Positions 4,022 through 36,912 of a stretch of 36,912 nt of DNA are shown one piece after another. The stretch lies in IMG/VR virus record IMGVR_UViG_3300008114_000242, positions 1-36,912 of that record, one strand, 5' to 3'. Position 1 is the first letter of the stretch. Each line of letters starts with the position of its first letter. The notes under the pieces were generated by a model that made no database searches, was not told where the DNA came from, and worked only from the letters and a program-made list of their open reading frames with translations. The DNA comes from a virus. Made by a program: the position numbers and the translations under genes.

Positions 4022-4873
4022 ATGGACAGAATTAATTTAAAGGAATTAGATTTTTTAATTAAAAATCATTTAGACCAACTAAATGAAGCTTTAATTGCTG
4101 GTGAAAATATTGATTCTGGGGATTTTATCGTAAAAAACTCAGAAAAAGATAAATTAACTGGTGAATTATCTAATGATCTTAAATACCTTTTTAAAATAAC
4201 AGAATTTACAAAGTCTGGAAAAGCTTTAGTTATTAAACCGGATCAATTACAGAAATGGAGAAATTCAACTAATGTGGATAGATCTTTAATGTCTAAAGAA
4301 GTAAATCTTGAAATTGAAAGAGTTTCTAAATTAAAATCTTATGACCCTTCTGCATATGGAAAATGGGAAGCAGATTATAAAGCAAGAAATACAAAATCAG
4401 GCAAACCTCATAAAACAAAAAAAAGTGCTGCTACTATAGCTTATGAGAAAAAGTTTGGTAAAAAAAATGAAAACATAGATATGAAAAACGAATTAATAAC
4501 TGAAGATATTGACAAAGCTTTGGCAAATAAAGCAAAAGCATCAGGAATCTCTAAGTCTATTTTAAAAAGAGTATATTCGAAAGGAGCAGCTGCTTGGAAA
4601 AGTGGACATCGTCCCGGTGTTTCTCAACAACAATGGGCTATGGGTCGCGTAAATTCATTTATCACTGGAAGTGGTGGTGCAAGAAAAGCTGATGCAGACC
4701 TTTGGGCAAAAGCCAAAAAATCCAAGAAAAGAAAAAATGAGAATCTTGAAGAGGAATTGTTAAGAAGAAAAATACGAGAAATTATAAGCGAAGAATATTT
4801 CACCAAAGAAGAATTGGATGAATTATATCCTATGTTAGTAGGTGAGGACGAAATTAATAATGAAGAGGAATAA
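4022..4873 (+). CDS. DUF5824-like phage protein with C-terminal [I/L]-x-E tag
   Basis: Protein of 283 aa with no established function. Residues about 160-230 carry a pattern I associate with the phage family DUF5824: KALANKAKASGISKSILKRV, then AAWKSGHRPG, QQWAMGRVNSFI and KADADLW. A short segment around 108-120 (SYDPSAYGKWEADY) is also seen in phage proteins. Near the C-terminus is LRRKIREIISEEYF, with I255-S256-E257 fitting the prohead protease consensus, followed by an acidic tail. The family name is from memory and not checked. Encoded 5 bases after the reductase gene. Possibly a head-packaged protein, by inference. Confidence 0.6.
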   Translation: MDRINLKELDFLIKNHLDQLNEALIAGENIDSGDFIVKNSEKDKLTGELSNDLKYLFKITEFTKSGKALVIKPDQLQKWRNSTNVDRSLMSKEVNLEIERVSKLKSYDPSAYGKWEADYKARNTKSGKPHKTKKSAATIAYEKKFGKKNENIDMKNELITEDIDKALANKAKASGISKSILKRVYSKGAAAWKSGHRPGVSQQQWAMGRVNSFITGSGGARKADADLWAKAKKSKKRKNENLEEELLRRKIREIISEEYFTKEELDELYPMLVGEDEINNEEE

Positions 4874-7225: not shown

Positions 7226-8398
7226 ATGGAAATAAGAGAATTAATAAAAAAAGTAATTAAAGAGTCTTTTTTAACAGAAAATGAAGTTAAAAGAATAGAT
7301 TTTAGCTACCCTTTACCTGATGATTTAAATAAATTGAAGAATTATTTCGATGAGAATAATTTTGAACTTTTTGTAGTAGGTGGAGCCGTGCGTGATATGA
7401 TCTTAGGTAAGGAACCTAAAGACATAGATTTAGTATCTGATGCTACTCCTGATGACGTAAAAAGGATTTTACCAGATGAATATAGAATAATTCCCAAAGG
7501 AGAAGCTTTTGGTATCCTTCAAATAATTACTCCAGAAGGTGGTGATTACGAGATTGCTCGTTATCGTGAGGATATTGGAAAAAAAGATGGAAGAAGACCA
7601 GATTCGGTCAAATTTTCTACTATTGATTCAGATGCTTTAAGAAGGGATTTAACAATTAATGCTCTATATTACGATATAAATAAAAATCAAATTATAGATT
7701 TTGTTAATGGTTATGAAGATATTCTCAAAAGAAATATTAAAACTGTTGGTAAAGCAGAAGATAGATTTGAAGAGGATCGATTAAGAATATTGAGAGCATT
7801 TAGATTTGCAGCTAGATTTAATTCAAACTTAGATCAGGATATAATAGAGGCTTTAAGAAAAAATAATTCTCTAAAAGGGGTATCTGAAGAGAGAATTAGA
7901 GATGAATTCCTTAAAGGTATAAAAAGTGCTCAATCTGTTGTAAAATTCCTTACCGATTTAGAAAATTATGGATTACTAAAACAAATTTTAGATGATTTGA
8001 ATTATAGTCAATCTGAATTCGTAGAATCAAAAGATTATATCGTGTTATTGGCTAATTTACTTAAAAATAATCCAGTTCATAAAATTCAAACTATTCTTAA
8101 TAATCTTAAATATACAACTGATGAAATAAGAAAAATTATTTTCCTTGTTTTGTTTTTAAATTTCGATCCTGAATCTGTATATAATTTTAAAGTAAAAGAA
8201 AATGTTTCGAAAATATCTCCAGAAGAATTAAAGGAATTTGCCAGAATAAATTCTATAAATTCAAATATGGTAGATAAATTCATAGATTTTAAATTATCTG
8301 TTTCAGGGGATGAACTTTTACAGAAGGGATTCAAGGGAGCATCATTAGGAAAAGAAAAAGAAAGATTAGAGACTGTTAACTTCCTTGATACTCTTTAG
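7226..8398 (+). CDS. cca: tRNA CCA-adding enzyme (class II nucleotidyltransferase)
   Basis: Adds or repairs the 3' CCA end of tRNAs from CTP and ATP. 390 aa. The nucleotidyltransferase head is clear: FVVGGAVRDMILG at 49-61 with the metal-binding DID at 66-68, then ARYREDIGKKDGRRPD, the class II signature RRDLTINALYYD, and EDRLRILRAFRFAARF of the neck domain. The C-terminal body and tail domains are shorter and more divergent. An N-terminal extension MEIRELIKKVIKESF precedes the catalytic domain and contains I11-K12-E13, the [I/L]-x-E pattern shared with other proteins here. None of the four tRNAs in the window encodes CCA, so the enzyme has an obvious use. Could also be a poly(A) polymerase paralogue, but the motif set favours CCA addition. 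Confidence 0.92.
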   Translation: MEIRELIKKVIKESFLTENEVKRIDFSYPLPDDLNKLKNYFDENNFELFVVGGAVRDMILGKEPKDIDLVSDATPDDVKRILPDEYRIIPKGEAFGILQIITPEGGDYEIARYREDIGKKDGRRPDSVKFSTIDSDALRRDLTINALYYDINKNQIIDFVNGYEDILKRNIKTVGKAEDRFEEDRLRILRAFRFAARFNSNLDQDIIEALRKNNSLKGVSEERIRDEFLKGIKSAQSVVKFLTDLENYGLLKQILDDLNYSQSEFVESKDYIVLLANLLKNNPVHKIQTILNNLKYTTDEIRKIIFLVLFLNFDPESVYNFKVKENVSKISPEELKEFARINSINSNMVDKFIDFKLSVSGDELLQKGFKGASLGKEKERLETVNFLDTL

Positions 8399-14731: not shown

Positions 14732-14732
14732 G

Positions 14733-14806
14733 TAGTCCCGAGGCGATTCGAACGCCTGACCGTCTGCTTAGAAGGCAGATGCTCTATCCAGCTGAGCTAC
14801 AGGACC
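14733..14806 (-). tRNA. tRNA-Arg (anticodon TCT)
   Basis: 74 nt cloverleaf on the minus strand. Acceptor GGTCCTG pairs with CGGGACT (G1-T72 and T6-G67 wobbles), D stem GCTC/GAGC, anticodon loop CTTCTAA giving UCU, T arm AGGCG-TTCGAAT-CGCCT, discriminator A. No CCA is encoded. Reads AGA, common in AT-rich phage genes. Confidence 0.95.
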
Positions 14807-14812
14807 AATTAG

Positions 14813-14884
14813 TAGCGGGAAGAGGATTCGAACCTCTGACTTCCAGATTATGAGTCTGGTGACCTACCTCTGGTCCATCCCGCA
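14813..14884 (-). tRNA. tRNA-Met (anticodon CAT) with initiator-like features
   Basis: 72 nt cloverleaf. D stem GACC/GGTC, anticodon stem CCAGA/TCTGG with loop CTCATAA, T arm AGAGG-TTCGAAT-CCTCT, no CCA encoded. With position 8 fixed at T, the acceptor is TGCGGGA against TCCCGCT, leaving T1-T72 unpaired. A11-T24 in the D stem and the 1-72 mismatch are hallmarks of bacterial initiator tRNA; the three G-C pairs at 29-31:39-41 are absent. It may be a divergent initiator, an elongator Met, or an Ile tRNA needing lysidine at C34. Confidence 0.92.
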
Positions 14885-14956
14885 GTATTTTTTTCTTATT
14901 ACAAAAATAGTAATAAAAAATTAAAAACAAATTTTATAATAAAATTATAAGATTTG

Positions 14957-15030
14957 CTCTCCTGACTGGGCTCGAACCAGTGACCCATTGATTAACAGTC
15001 AATTGCTCTGACCTACTGAGCTACAGGAGA
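14957..15030 (-). tRNA. tRNA-Asn (anticodon GTT)
   Basis: 74 nt on the minus strand. Acceptor TCTCCTG pairs fully with CAGGAGA, D stem GCTC/GAGC, anticodon stem around loop CTGTTAA giving GUU, T arm CTGG-TTCGAGC-CCAG, discriminator G, no CCA. Asn codons are very frequent in the phage proteins, notably the fibres. Confidence 0.95.
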
Positions 15031-15096
15031 TTTTTTTAATTTATGTAGCCGGGGCGGGAATCGAACCCGCAAGACCTTTAGGGGTCAATGGATTTT

Positions 15097-15702
15097 CTTA
15101 CTACTATAGTTTTCACTACCCTTTCGGTTTGTAGTCTGGACTATACCTTCACCATATTTATCAACTTAGGTGTTCCGTGTCTAGTCTCTACACACGCCCA
15201 GTTATAATTATTATAACTTGCTTGGCTCGGTATTCCCATTTTACAGGGTTCACCGAATTTACGGAATTCTACTCTCGAAATTTCTAACGAGGCACTCTAT
15301 TTTTATTTTTTCCACGATAAGTAAAAGTAAAAGCGTGACAGTTTGGACATAAAATTTTTAAATTTTCTATTCTATTATCATCATTTATACCATTAATATG
15401 CTCTAATTCAAATAAGGAGAATTTTCTATTAGAATTTCTTCTATTTTAAATTCTTTACCAAACTTTCTAAATTTCTCTCCTTGATTCCAAGCAGATCCTG
15501 TAAAATGAGAAATATCAATATTAAATTTCTTGAATTTTAGTTTCAACGTTTTATAATTACCACCAACTGGTAATATTTTTAGTTGCCTACAAACTTCAGC
15601 TATTGATAAACTATTTTTTACAATTACTTCTAATTCTTCTTTCGTATATTTATATTTCATGAATATAAATAGTAAGAAAAAAGTTAAACGTGGTTATAGT
15701 CA
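15097..15702 (-). ncRNA. Group I self-splicing intron in tRNA-Leu(UAA)
   Basis: 606-nt intron ending in G. Minus-strand core elements are all present: P3 TTCCGT/ACGGAA (15261-15266 with 15173-15178), P4 TTCGGT/ACCGAG, the Q segment ACCGAGCCAAGC (15220-15231), palindromic P6a AGTTATAATAATTATAACT (15200-15218), R segment GTAGAGACTAGACACGG, P8 CACC/GGTG (15150-15172), S segment GGTATAGTCCAGACT with P7 GACTA/TAGTC, and a P9 hairpin with GAAA loop (15116-15134). P2 is CTCG/CGAG (15274-15291). The insertion point equals that of the cyanobacterial and plastid trnL(UAA) intron. An HNH gene fills the space between the 5' splice site and P2. Confidence 0.93.
15284..15660 (-). pseudogene. Intron-encoded HNH homing endonuclease, frameshifted
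   Basis: Frame 1 (15403-15660, 85 aa) starts MKYKYTKEELEVIVKNSLSI and contains GGNYKTLKLKFKKFNIDISH then FTGSAWNQGEKF, the N-terminal DNA-binding half of a known HNH family. It stops at a TAG. From about 15413 the -1 frame continues with LFELEHINGINDDNRIENLK, ILCPNCHAFT and TYRGKNKNR, the catalytic HNH half (EH, N, CxxC-half), ending at a TAG at 15284-15286 inside the intron P2 loop. One missing base near 15410 would restore a 126-codon frame. Either an inactivated nuclease, a -1 frameshift, or a sequence error. Confidence 0.88.
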
Positions 15703-15787
15703 AAGTCCATCGTGTTTGCCTATTTCACCACCCGGCCATTAATTCAAAGAACAACGATACAAATATATATAAAATATATATAAAAAC

Positions 15788-34888: not shown

Positions 34889-35230
34889 GTGTCAAATAAA
34901 AATAAAATTATTTATTTATTTTTCATTCCTGAATTGAATATAAGTAAGATTGGAATAAGCAGAAATGCTACTAAAAGATTAAGTCAATTACAAACTGGTT
35001 GTCCTTATCAAATACAATTAATTAAAACATATAGTTCAGAATTTTCTACTAAAATTGAAAGAGTATTACATAGGTCATTCAGAACAAAAAAAGTTGATTC
35101 GTTTGAATATGCCTTGTTAGGAGAATGGTTTAATTTAGAAATAGATTCAATATTAAAATTCGAGGAAATTTGCTCTGAAATAGAGAAAAATATTATCTAT
35201 TTAAAGAAAGAAAACAATCCTTTTCTATGA
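34889..35230 (+). CDS. T5orf172/GIY-YIG-like protein
   Basis: 113 aa, GTG start. IIYLFFIPELNISKIGISRN (about 7-26), then ATKRLSQLQTGCPYQIQLIK and KIERVLHRSF, GEWFNLE, matches the T5orf172/Mug113 domain, a relative of GIY-YIG nucleases (K19-I20-G21 and R25, R30). Such proteins are DNA-binding or nicking enzymes found near homing genes. It overlaps the minus-strand endonuclease gene tail-to-tail by 6 bases. The cleavage competence of this short form is uncertain. Confidence 0.75.
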   Translation: MSNKNKIIYLFFIPELNISKIGISRNATKRLSQLQTGCPYQIQLIKTYSSEFSTKIERVLHRSFRTKKVDSFEYALLGEWFNLEIDSILKFEEICSEIEKNIIYLKKENNPFL

Positions 35231-36912
35231 TATGTGAAGTACAAATTTCATACTTCCGCAATCCCAAATTCTATCCATTCTATTTTTTTTTGCTATTTGC
35301 CATTCAGTCAATTCAGAATTTTCATTGAATAATTTTATTAATTTTTGTTTATTATATTTGAAACGGTGATATCTTATAAAATAGTTACTTTTTTCGAAGT
35401 AAAAATAATTAGGTTTAGTTGTATTGATATATTCGAAATTGCATTTATGGTAAACAGTATTTTCCGGATTTAAACCACTCCAACGACAATCTGCATAAGT
35501 GAAAATCTCTTTAGTTTCAGGATTGTTTTTTAAAAAATGATTTAAAAGTTTTTCAAAACCCCCAATAATATTATAGTCAATTTTAGAGCAAAAACGAGAT
35601 AATTCTACTGAATTTTCTTTGTCCTGATTATTTTTTAATTTGTTTCCAAGGGCTAGTCTAGGTTTACAAAAAGTCATTACTGAAACAATTTCATTTTTTA
35701 AAAATAAACCATAACTTTTGAAGTTCACATCATTTCCCTGTATATGATTTTCTTCTAAAAATAATTTCTTTTCCATAAATGTGATTTCTTTTATTTCACA
35801 ATTTCTTGCATAAATTTTATTAGGCGTTAAATTCAAATAATTCTTAATTCTACTTTTCACTATATCCTTTTTAAACATCCATTCATCTTCAAAAATATGT
35901 ATCAATTTAATATTTTCATTATTACATAATTGAGATTTTTTTAAATGATAATTGGGAAGTTTGTTTCCACCCATTTCAGAGTGAAAATAATTCCCATTCA
36001 ATTCAAATGCTATTTTGTGATCTTGTAAGTAGAAATCTAACTCCAGAGGAGCAATAATTTTTTTTGTATTCTCAACATATTCTAGATTTAGTGAATCTAA
36101 AAAATCTTTGAATTCACCTTGTTGTTTTGAAATGCTAGTTAATGGATAACATCTTCTACAAATTGGTATAGAATCAAAAGACCATTCGAATATATTGTCA
36201 CATAATTTACAAGTAAGTTGATATTTCAAATAGTGTAATTTGCCTTCATCTGTCTTTATTCTTAATTTATTGTATTGATTAATATCGAACTTCAAATCAT
36301 TTTTAGCTAAAATTTCCTTTATTTTATTTGTTTTGTTTAGCTTTTGGATGCCCAAATAAAGATCAGAGCTAAAATAATAATCTGAATTAAATTTATTTTG
36401 GTTTGTTTTTTTTAAATTATCTTTGCATTTATCAGTTTGTAAAGTATAATCAACTCCGTATTTATCTCTATTTGTTTGTTTGAGTTTGTCTAAGGACTCT
36501 TTAGTTTTGAGGTGATGATCAACTTTATATTTATCTAAAGTTGTTTTTTTTGCTTTCTCTCTATTATTAAAATTTGGATCATTATATTTTAATAATTTTG
36601 TTTGATCAGATTTTTCTTTATAATCCTTTATTTTAGATGGGTGTTCTACATCATACTTCTCTTTCAAAGAGCTCTTTATTTTTTCATAATTATTATATTT
36701 CTCATCTCCGTATTTTTCCTTCTTGATTTGTTTTAAATTATCATAATAATTATCAGTTTCAAAAAAACTTTTTTTACCATATTTTTTTTCTATGGTATCA
36801 AAAATTTTTTTCATCCTTTCGTCTTTATGGTTTTTTCTATATAATTCAGTGCATTTTTCACTGCAATTTTTTTTGTTTTTCTTGTTACCAGCATCGAATT
36901 CCTTTTTGCATG
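35225..36912 (-). CDS. Homing endonuclease, repeat-rich with Vsr-like nuclease domain (partial, 5' end outside window)
   Basis: At least 561 residues; the frame stays open to the window edge, upstream of the ATG at 36814. The upstream part reads CKKEFDAGNKKNKKNCSEKC, a zinc knuckle. Next come six or seven repeats built on K-Y-G (KKYGKKSF, KEKYGDEKYNN, KEKYDVEHPSK, DKYKVDHHLKTKES, RDKYGVDYTLQT), probably DNA-reading modules. A second zinc site CKLCDNIFEWSFDSIPICRR follows. The nuclease part LELDFYLQDHKIAFELNGNY and IKLIHIFEDEW resembles Vsr/PD-(D/E)xK enzymes, with a long C-terminal domain containing SRFCSK and YADCRWSG. Mobile gene of the phage. Confidence 0.8.
   Translation of the reverse strand, partial: CKKEFDAGNKKNKKNCSEKCTELYRKNHKDERMKKIFDTIEKKYGKKSFFETDNYYDNLKQIKKEKYGDEKYNNYEKIKSSLKEKYDVEHPSKIKDYKEKSDQTKLLKYNDPNFNNREKAKKTTLDKYKVDHHLKTKESLDKLKQTNRDKYGVDYTLQTDKCKDNLKKTNQNKFNSDYYFSSDLYLGIQKLNKTNKIKEILAKNDLKFDINQYNKLRIKTDEGKLHYLKYQLTCKLCDNIFEWSFDSIPICRRCYPLTSISKQQGEFKDFLDSLNLEYVENTKKIIAPLELDFYLQDHKIAFELNGNYFHSEMGGNKLPNYHLKKSQLCNNENIKLIHIFEDEWMFKKDIVKSRIKNYLNLTPNKIYARNCEIKEITFMEKKLFLEENHIQGNDVNFKSYGLFLKNEIVSVMTFCKPRLALGNKLKNNQDKENSVELSRFCSKIDYNIIGGFEKLLNHFLKNNPETKEIFTYADCRWSGLNPENTVYHKCNFEYINTTKPNYFYFEKSNYFIRYHRFKYNKQKLIKLFNENSELTEWQIAKKNRMDRIWDCGSMKFVLHIS

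Follow-up and report, generated by a model that had tools for sequence, protein, structure and literature searches.

The tRNA-Leu(UAA) gene of a large T4-like phage is interrupted within its anticodon by a group I intron, which accommodates a gene of HNH endonuclease in the loop of P1. The closest relatives of this intron occupy the same site in other phages and in Bacteroidales, suggesting a mobile element common to viruses and cells. It was found in a stretch of 36,912 nucleotides (IMG/VR virus record IMGVR_UViG_3300008114_000242, positions 1–36,912), referred to here at its full length as the window; loci compared with it carry L numbers. Very probably this group I intron is mobile, carries its own HNH gene and is specific to tRNA-Leu(UAA): it splices itself, homes and is shared by phage and bacterial genomes; self-splicing, DNA cutting, homing and the direction of transfer are what we infer in this reading.

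In its default mode, which admits no introns, ARAGORN reported three tRNAs in the window and tRNA-Leu was not among them. With introns allowed, as the preliminary description had proposed, it recovered a tRNA-Leu(taa) at 15045–15737 of the minus strand, the anticodon loop of which is interrupted by an intron of 606 nt. The tRNA cluster and one gene relevant to its maturation are as follows:

15703–15737, minus strand: 5' exon of tRNA-Leu(UAA), ending in GGACTT at U34 (ARAGORN with introns allowed, and sequence)
15097–15702, minus strand: group I intron, 606 nt in the window and 709 nt in seven otherwise matching contigs
15045–15096, minus strand: 3' exon of tRNA-Leu(UAA), beginning with AAAATCC at A35, no encoded CCA
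14956–15030, minus strand: tRNA-Asn(GUU), the next gene of the tRNA cluster (ARAGORN, default mode)
14812–14884, minus strand: tRNA with CAU anticodon, called Met (ARAGORN, default mode)
14732–14806, minus strand: tRNA-Arg(UCU) (ARAGORN, default mode)
7226–8398, plus strand: homologue of tRNA nucleotidyltransferase, the CCA-adding enzyme (PHROG 2244, E 2.3e-55)

The anticodon loop CUUAAAA is interrupted after U34, so that the split falls exactly at U34|A35, where it had been placed before from the exon ends GGACTT and AAAATCC, and the joined exons take up the standard cloverleaf fold (ARAGORN). Since the 3' exon has no encoded CCA, a CCA-adding enzyme would be needed, and the nucleotidyltransferase homologue would serve maturation of this tRNA-Leu. 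The seven matching contigs are 99.6–100% identical to the window over the aligned parts, and one of them belongs to a contig of 222,069 bp, in which four tRNAs with a single tRNA-Leu(UAA) were registered by ARAGORN in 20-kb pieces. Since this only tRNA-Leu(UAA) of the 222-kb contig is the interrupted one, and TTA accounts for 339 of the 610 leucine codons in 17 ORFs of the window, the phage tRNA should indeed depend on splicing, as had been supposed.

Genes for a major head protein of T4 type, a tail sheath, an RNA ligase and a tRNA nucleotidyltransferase were recognised in the window with PHROGs, and the carrier is a T4-like phage whose genome measures at least 222 kb. The data do not establish its previous assignment to phages of Bacteroidota: the capsid protein, approximately 43% identical to those of both Flavobacterium phage immuto and Microcystis phage Mel-JY01, is about equally near to the two, and searches with the capsid, sheath, homing-endonuclease and nucleotidyltransferase proteins picked out no single host group. 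The window also encodes a large free-standing homing-endonuclease-like protein (35225–36814, minus strand; PHROG 3339 and 559), whose relatives are Campylobacter and huge-phage proteins.

With the Rfam model Intron_gpI the match is borderline: the window intron scored 50.3 bits (E 1.3e-11; gathering score 50) in a 1-kb scan, yet it was unreported when the whole window was scanned at gathering and when the record was searched for families, so that it lies at the limit of this generic model. A fair test was provided by covariance model R2, composed of 22 bacterial trnL introns with phages excluded. It gave 133.6 bits (E 6.5e-33) for the window, and with the covariation described below this bears out the group I intron in tRNA-Leu(UAA). 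The 154.2 bits obtained with model R1 are not independent, because the window itself is a part of R1. Covariation was estimated in 45 aligned intron cores, 23 from phages (the window included) and 22 from bacteria, on a structure obtained with RNAalifold to which P7 and P9.0 were added by hand. In these cores 95.8% of cells are pairing versus 77.3% upon shuffling. Double changes were registered in 30 of 42 pairs over the 45 introns, and the total of 352 double-change cells exceeded both the shuffled mean (100.8, with a number as high in 0 of 500 shuffles) and the values given by sliding of helix partners (75 cells at most). In P7 four of five pairs are invariant, while the fifth varies as A-U, C-G or U-A. 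Helices P3, P4, P5, P6, P7, P8, P9 and P9.0 can be placed in the window, including all of P3, P4, P7, P8 and P9 that the preliminary description had found readable:

15298–15702, minus strand: loop of P1, 405 nt in the window and 508 nt in the matching contigs, housing the HNH gene
15292–15297, minus strand: internal guide sequence GAGUGC, opposite the 5' exon GGACUU (pairing read from sequence)
15261–15266, minus strand: 5' strand of P3, with its partner at 15173–15178
15252–15257 and 15226–15231, minus strand: P4; P4 and P5 together span 15226–15257
15246–15248 and 15235–15237, minus strand: P5
15182–15186 and 15139–15143, minus strand: P7 pseudoknot, enclosing P8 and the 3' strand of P3
15169–15172 and 15150–15153, minus strand: P8
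15131–15135 and 15100–15104, minus strand: P9.0
15107–15118, minus strand: P9 with a GAAA loop

In P1, inspected by eye, U34 is opposite G15297 in a U.G wobble at the splice site and there is one G.G mismatch; no P10 was seen at the window intron. Its last base is G15097, the terminal G. By subgroup the intron is probably IC3-like, since P7.1/P7.2 are absent, P5 is short and P9 bears the GAAA loop.

The HNH endonuclease gene inside the P1 loop had been overlooked in the first reading, and in the window it is broken:

15403–15660, minus strand: N-terminal fragment of the HNH homing endonuclease, which ends early (85 aa)
15284–15411, minus strand: C-terminal HNH remnant in another frame (LELEHINGINDDNRIENLKILCPNCHAF...), coordinates from sequence
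15411–15412, no strand: join point of 103 missing bp, which are present in the seven matching contigs

The remnant has its stop in the P2 loop and overlaps the internal guide sequence. The 103 bp absent at 15411 include the first CxxC of the HNH domain, and an intact frame of 159 aa is present in all seven matching viral contigs with the 709-nt intron. Relative to the 222-kb contig the window lacks approximately 150, 103, 109 and 98 bp at positions 4309, 15411, 16821 and 34254, respectively, and outside these four gaps it is at least 99.97% identical to it. No microhomology was seen at the two joins inspected. Since segments of similar size are missing at four places and the frame is intact in seven contigs of seven, the break in the HNH gene is probably an assembly fault; if it were real, the window copy could not home by itself. 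Other contigs lack other pieces, of 94 and 136 bp.

The broken frame, taken together with the marginal Rfam score, might also be read as the sign of a degenerate relic that no longer splices and leaves its tRNA a pseudogene. We consider this very unlikely: the core helices pair, the exons rejoin into a standard cloverleaf, and loss of four segments of about 100–150 bp compared with a nearly identical contig points to assembly dropout.

The intact HNH protein corresponds to PHROG 10822 (E 3.2e-49), and its scores with the Pfam HNH models are below their cut-offs. Residues C103, C106, H122, N134, C139, C142 and H143 are invariant in 19 intact sequences; the HNH motif and CxxC pairs are thus found in intact copies, and in the window copy they are not in one frame. 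The structure model (pLDDT 84.2), compared with a view to the ββα-metal fold, has many HNH-type nucleases among the fold matches listed from PDB, all of them weak (best Z 5.0), and Foldseek gave no match for it at E 0.001. The intron-encoded HNH enzyme I-HmuI was absent from the matches listed, which carries no weight. No close solved structure was found in PDB by sequence or fold; the sole sequence match, with a ribosomal protein at E 0.032, was taken as chance. I-HmuI is an HNH homing endonuclease of a phage group I intron, and with enzymes of this type the window family shares small size, coding within an intron, two CxxC pairs and the H...N...H arrangement, but it is linked to a tRNA gene rather than to a protein gene. 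Another endonuclease of a tRNA intron, I-SspI, was reportedly described by Bonocora and Shub in 2001 for cyanobacterial tRNA-fMet; it is set apart from the window protein by a different tRNA, site and host group.

Other viral introns of this kind were searched for with a pattern in which the J8/7-P7 segment of the ribozyme is joined to the 3' half of tRNA-Leu. Among 63 contigs matched, 49 contain an intron core according to the covariance model (E ≤1.5e-11), seven of them being close relatives of the window, so the rarity of such introns in phages had been overstated. The other candidates were rejected, eight as intronless tRNA-Leu genes with a chance match upstream and six because no tRNA was there. 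Two huge phages (735 and 595 kb) have a trnL intron, and so does Agrobacterium phage Atu_ph07 (L005, L045), where it is 278 nt long. The latter is unannotated, and a hypothetical protein is annotated over its end and the 3' exon. One phage lineage (L043, L067) has three such introns, in tRNA-Leu(UAA), tRNA-Thr(GGU) and a tRNA with CAU anticodon.

Several particular cases deserve mention. At L056 introns are present in tRNA-Thr(GGU) and tRNA-Leu(UAA), and at L043, L067 and L056 an HNH gene lies directly upstream of tRNA-Leu. In another set of loci (L253, L254, L260, L261, L269, L270, L310 and L034, the last being in the record of L255) introns are 920–990 nt long where measured, and the ribozyme match is in two pieces. 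In L034 the HNH frame continues through the core and then encodes an additional domain; this may reflect an insertion within a peripheral loop. In Microcoleus phage (L074, 1313–1598) a tRNA-Arg annotated as 286 nt long holds a group I intron (125.2 bits).

In bacterial genomes scanning with a general pattern gave at least 120 loci. The listed trnL introns include those of Bacteroidales, Cytophagales, Saprospiraceae, Acidobacteria, Planctomycetes, Bacillota, Alpha-, Beta- and Gammaproteobacteria, Bdellovibrionales and Cyanobacteria. The site known from cyanobacteria and plastids is thus occupied in all these other groups too. With R1 at E 1e-8 or better, matches were registered in 19 of 247 sampled genomes from the phylum of a Bacteroidales MAG and in 30 of 98 from the phylum of a cyanobacterium, some of them in other tRNA genes. 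All counts of loci given here are not prevalences, since exact-pattern scans catch only those that fit the pattern and the number of bacterial loci is a lower bound.

The maximum-likelihood tree of ribozymes comprised 169 cores (identical ones merged) and 173 columns; 11 low-scoring or truncated loci were left out (L010, L032, L034, L062, L069, L070, L071, L072, L206, L218 and L219). The window falls in a clade of 28 rows with support of 99/98, values in this tree being rough because the bootstrap had not settled. The clade consists of eight phage trnL introns (the window included), 19 introns from Bacteroidota and one from an unclassified yak-omasum MAG, i.e. all its rows are trnL introns. 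Unlike the window, trnL introns of Bacteroidota other than Bacteroidales are elsewhere in the tree: those of Cytophagales, Saprospiraceae, Lewinella and unnamed Bacteroidota lie outside the clade. Cyanobacterial trnL introns make up their own clade (100/100); it has inside it a MAG labelled Tatlockia, perhaps a contamination.

This topology bears directly on the link with cyanobacteria suggested by the preliminary description. The cyanobacterial and plastid trnL(UAA) introns resemble the window intron in the gene, the U34|A35 position, the core architecture and a guide sequence that follows closely on the 5' site. If the intron had been acquired from a cyanobacterial trnL, the common site and the similar region of the guide sequence would be explained, and the capsid protein does have a Microcystis phage among its nearest relatives. 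Such an origin is nevertheless extremely improbable, since the window groups with Bacteroidales and phages, the cyanobacterial introns are separate, and a joint clade of them with the window was rejected (p-AU 0.020). The cyanobacterial introns also differ from the window lineage, which has an HNH gene in L1: the 11 among the listed loci are 219–261 nt long, too short for such a gene. This comparison covered the cyanobacterial introns.

One clade of all phage trnL introns (31 rows), i.e. their single origin, was likewise rejected (p-AU 0.0065). The tree included one intron of a protein gene, that from the capsid gene of Pelagibacter phage HTVC120P (L004, 2990–3151). It scored 148.1 bits with the trnL model and paired with a huge-phage trnL intron (98/85), and based on this score and position introns seem to move between protein-gene and tRNA sites. 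From the same observation one can assume that an intron of some phage protein gene entered the tRNA of the window's phage independently. We regard such an entry as highly improbable here, because all rows of the window's clade are trnL introns, thin as this test is with a single protein-gene intron in the tree, and because of the link between the HNH family and tRNA-Leu(UAA).

Homologous HNH genes are located in the same loop in Bacteroidales (L087, L169, L178), in an unclassified MAG (L191) and in a genome of Bacteroidota (L196). The intact phage protein is 51% identical to that of L087 and 54% identical to that of L196. The gene is frameshifted in L126, internally deleted in L150 and remnant-like in L146, the HNH domain is lost from the 384-nt intron of L110, and most other trnL introns seen in Bacteroidota are compact. 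The trnL(UAA) introns of Bacteroidales and other Bacteroidota are like the window intron in site, those of Bacteroidales also in ribozyme clade, and some of them in the presence of a homologous HNH gene (51–54%) in the same loop. The Bacteroidales introns differ from it in that their HNH frame extends as far as the ribozyme core, whereas the phage frame stops in P2, and in being chromosomal: homologues of rodA and pbp2/mrdA flank L087, L169 and L178, which places these three loci on host chromosomes. The gene for mreC is also present at L087 and L178, and mreB at L178; the pbp2 and mreC matches are strong, yet under the NCBIfam curated cut-offs. Since the same pair of intron and HNH gene is found in tRNA-Leu(UAA) of phages, of Bacteroidales and of one Bacteroidota genome resembling Lewinella, the element has very probably moved between phage genomes and bacterial chromosomes.

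The linkage of the HNH family with its tRNA was estimated for the best 80 of 330 viral relatives, merged at 95% into 59 clusters with one representative each. A ribozyme core lies just downstream on the same strand in 26 of the 59. In 18 of these ARAGORN reports tRNA-Leu(taa), five others have Leu-like exons (GACTT and AAAAT) under another name, and three (L260, L270, L273) are without confirmation of tRNA-Leu. A further 17 clusters have no core and lie within 250 nt of an uninterrupted tRNA with UAA anticodon; 12 of these tRNAs have the length expected for tRNA-Leu (82–91 nt), while for the remaining five the name Leu rests on the anticodon, as they are 75–79 nt long. The last 16 clusters have neither core nor UAA-anticodon tRNA, and for four of them the nearest tRNA is another tRNA-Leu. 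Among these best 80 of 330 relatives the circumstantial evidence is strong that the protein is directed at tRNA-Leu. In L250, L282, L295 and similar loci the HNH gene is immediately upstream of an uninterrupted UAA-anticodon tRNA, and at L250, L271, L280 and L303 the adjoining tRNA is 75–77 nt long and has no long variable arm of tRNA-Leu. Empty sites exist as well: the exact 24 nt around the insertion point belong to an intact tRNA-Leu(taa) in all 14 viral contigs that hold them.

Both remaining groups of clusters, the 17 beside an uninterrupted tRNA and the 16 of 59 that are not at tRNA-Leu(UAA), count against the mobile-intron explanation. HNH genes that adjoin an uninterrupted tRNA either do not cut this site or face a protected one. 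Against the explanation as a whole we also count the broken HNH gene of the window, the G.G mismatch in P1, the unseen P10, the weak fold matches, the Pfam scores under cut-offs and the unsettled bootstrap of the ribozyme tree. The HNH tree follows the ribozyme tree only loosely, suggesting, though not establishing, separate histories of the two components in the window; the AU test did not reject a history common to both (p-AU 0.061 and 0.106).

An alternative history would be that the phage captured a bacterial tRNA-Leu gene complete with the intron, which has since descended vertically without homing. It agrees with the kinship of the ribozyme to Bacteroidales and with the 3' exon, which is 82% identical to trnL exons of Bacteroidales and 82% identical to the best phage relative. 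We find it unlikely, because intact HNH genes are present in the P1 loop, the HNH family is linked to tRNA-Leu(UAA), and DNA similarity of the window's phage to the loci of six other phage records from the clade hardly extends beyond the tRNA-intron segment. Moreover, phage trnL introns do not form one clade. All these points argue for repeated movement.

We therefore return to the mobile intron with its own endonuclease. The intron probably removes itself: it would be excised from pre-tRNA in the usual way, by a pair of transesterifications which guanosine starts, and the UAA anticodon would be rebuilt. The 5' splice site would be at U34, which forms a U.G pair with the guide sequence, and the 3' splice site after the terminal G. 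The HNH endonuclease would cut intronless tRNA-Leu(UAA) genes, and repair of the cut gene would copy the intron in.

Introns in phage tRNA genes as such are not novel. According to a 2014 review all phage introns then known were in protein genes (PMC3984707). Those in tRNAs of the Prevotella-associated Lak megaphages, the first in phages to the authors' knowledge, were described as "enigmatic" by Devoto et al. (2019); the accessible part of their text does not call them group I (PMC6784885). The Lak loci are like the window in having introns in tRNA genes. Lak-B1 and Lak-C1 (L071, L072) matched group I introns at 47.4 and 44.9 bits, weak and diverged, and Rfam at gathering left both introns unreported. 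In Lak-C1 another 5' exon resembling that of tRNA-Leu comes after the core, together with part of a second core. Searches of the open-licence PMC literature yielded no description of HNH-bearing trnL(UAA) introns, whether from phages or from Bacteroidota. Our data thus suggest a class to which at least two of the Lak tRNA introns may belong and place tRNA introns in many other phages. Such genes stay hidden because a default tRNA finder misses the tRNA and, among 20 related records, Rfam Intron_gpI at gathering reported the intron in six.

The linkage of endonuclease and tRNA may have a further meaning. As a second benefit, such linkage may help phages to spread or amplify anti-defence genes; a 2026 paper on SegB reportedly argues this for T6, in which a tRNA is cleaved by a defence (PMC13096335).

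The trnL(UAA) intron is the classic old and immobile intron, and its origin has been argued since 1990. The debate is summarised in PMC5733544. A more far-reaching view, which we offer tentatively and as possible rather than likely, is that U34/A35 is a standing homing site for phages and bacteria alike. The intron would shuttle between jumbo phages and Bacteroidota, loss of HNH would yield the compact 200-nt form, and the cyanobacterial and plastid intron would be one immobilised branch of a phage-carried pool. A widespread phage-carried trnL intron with its own endonuclease, present also in Bacteroidota, is a concrete vehicle of transfer, and the choice between vertical descent and lateral spread of the trnL(UAA) intron becomes testable.
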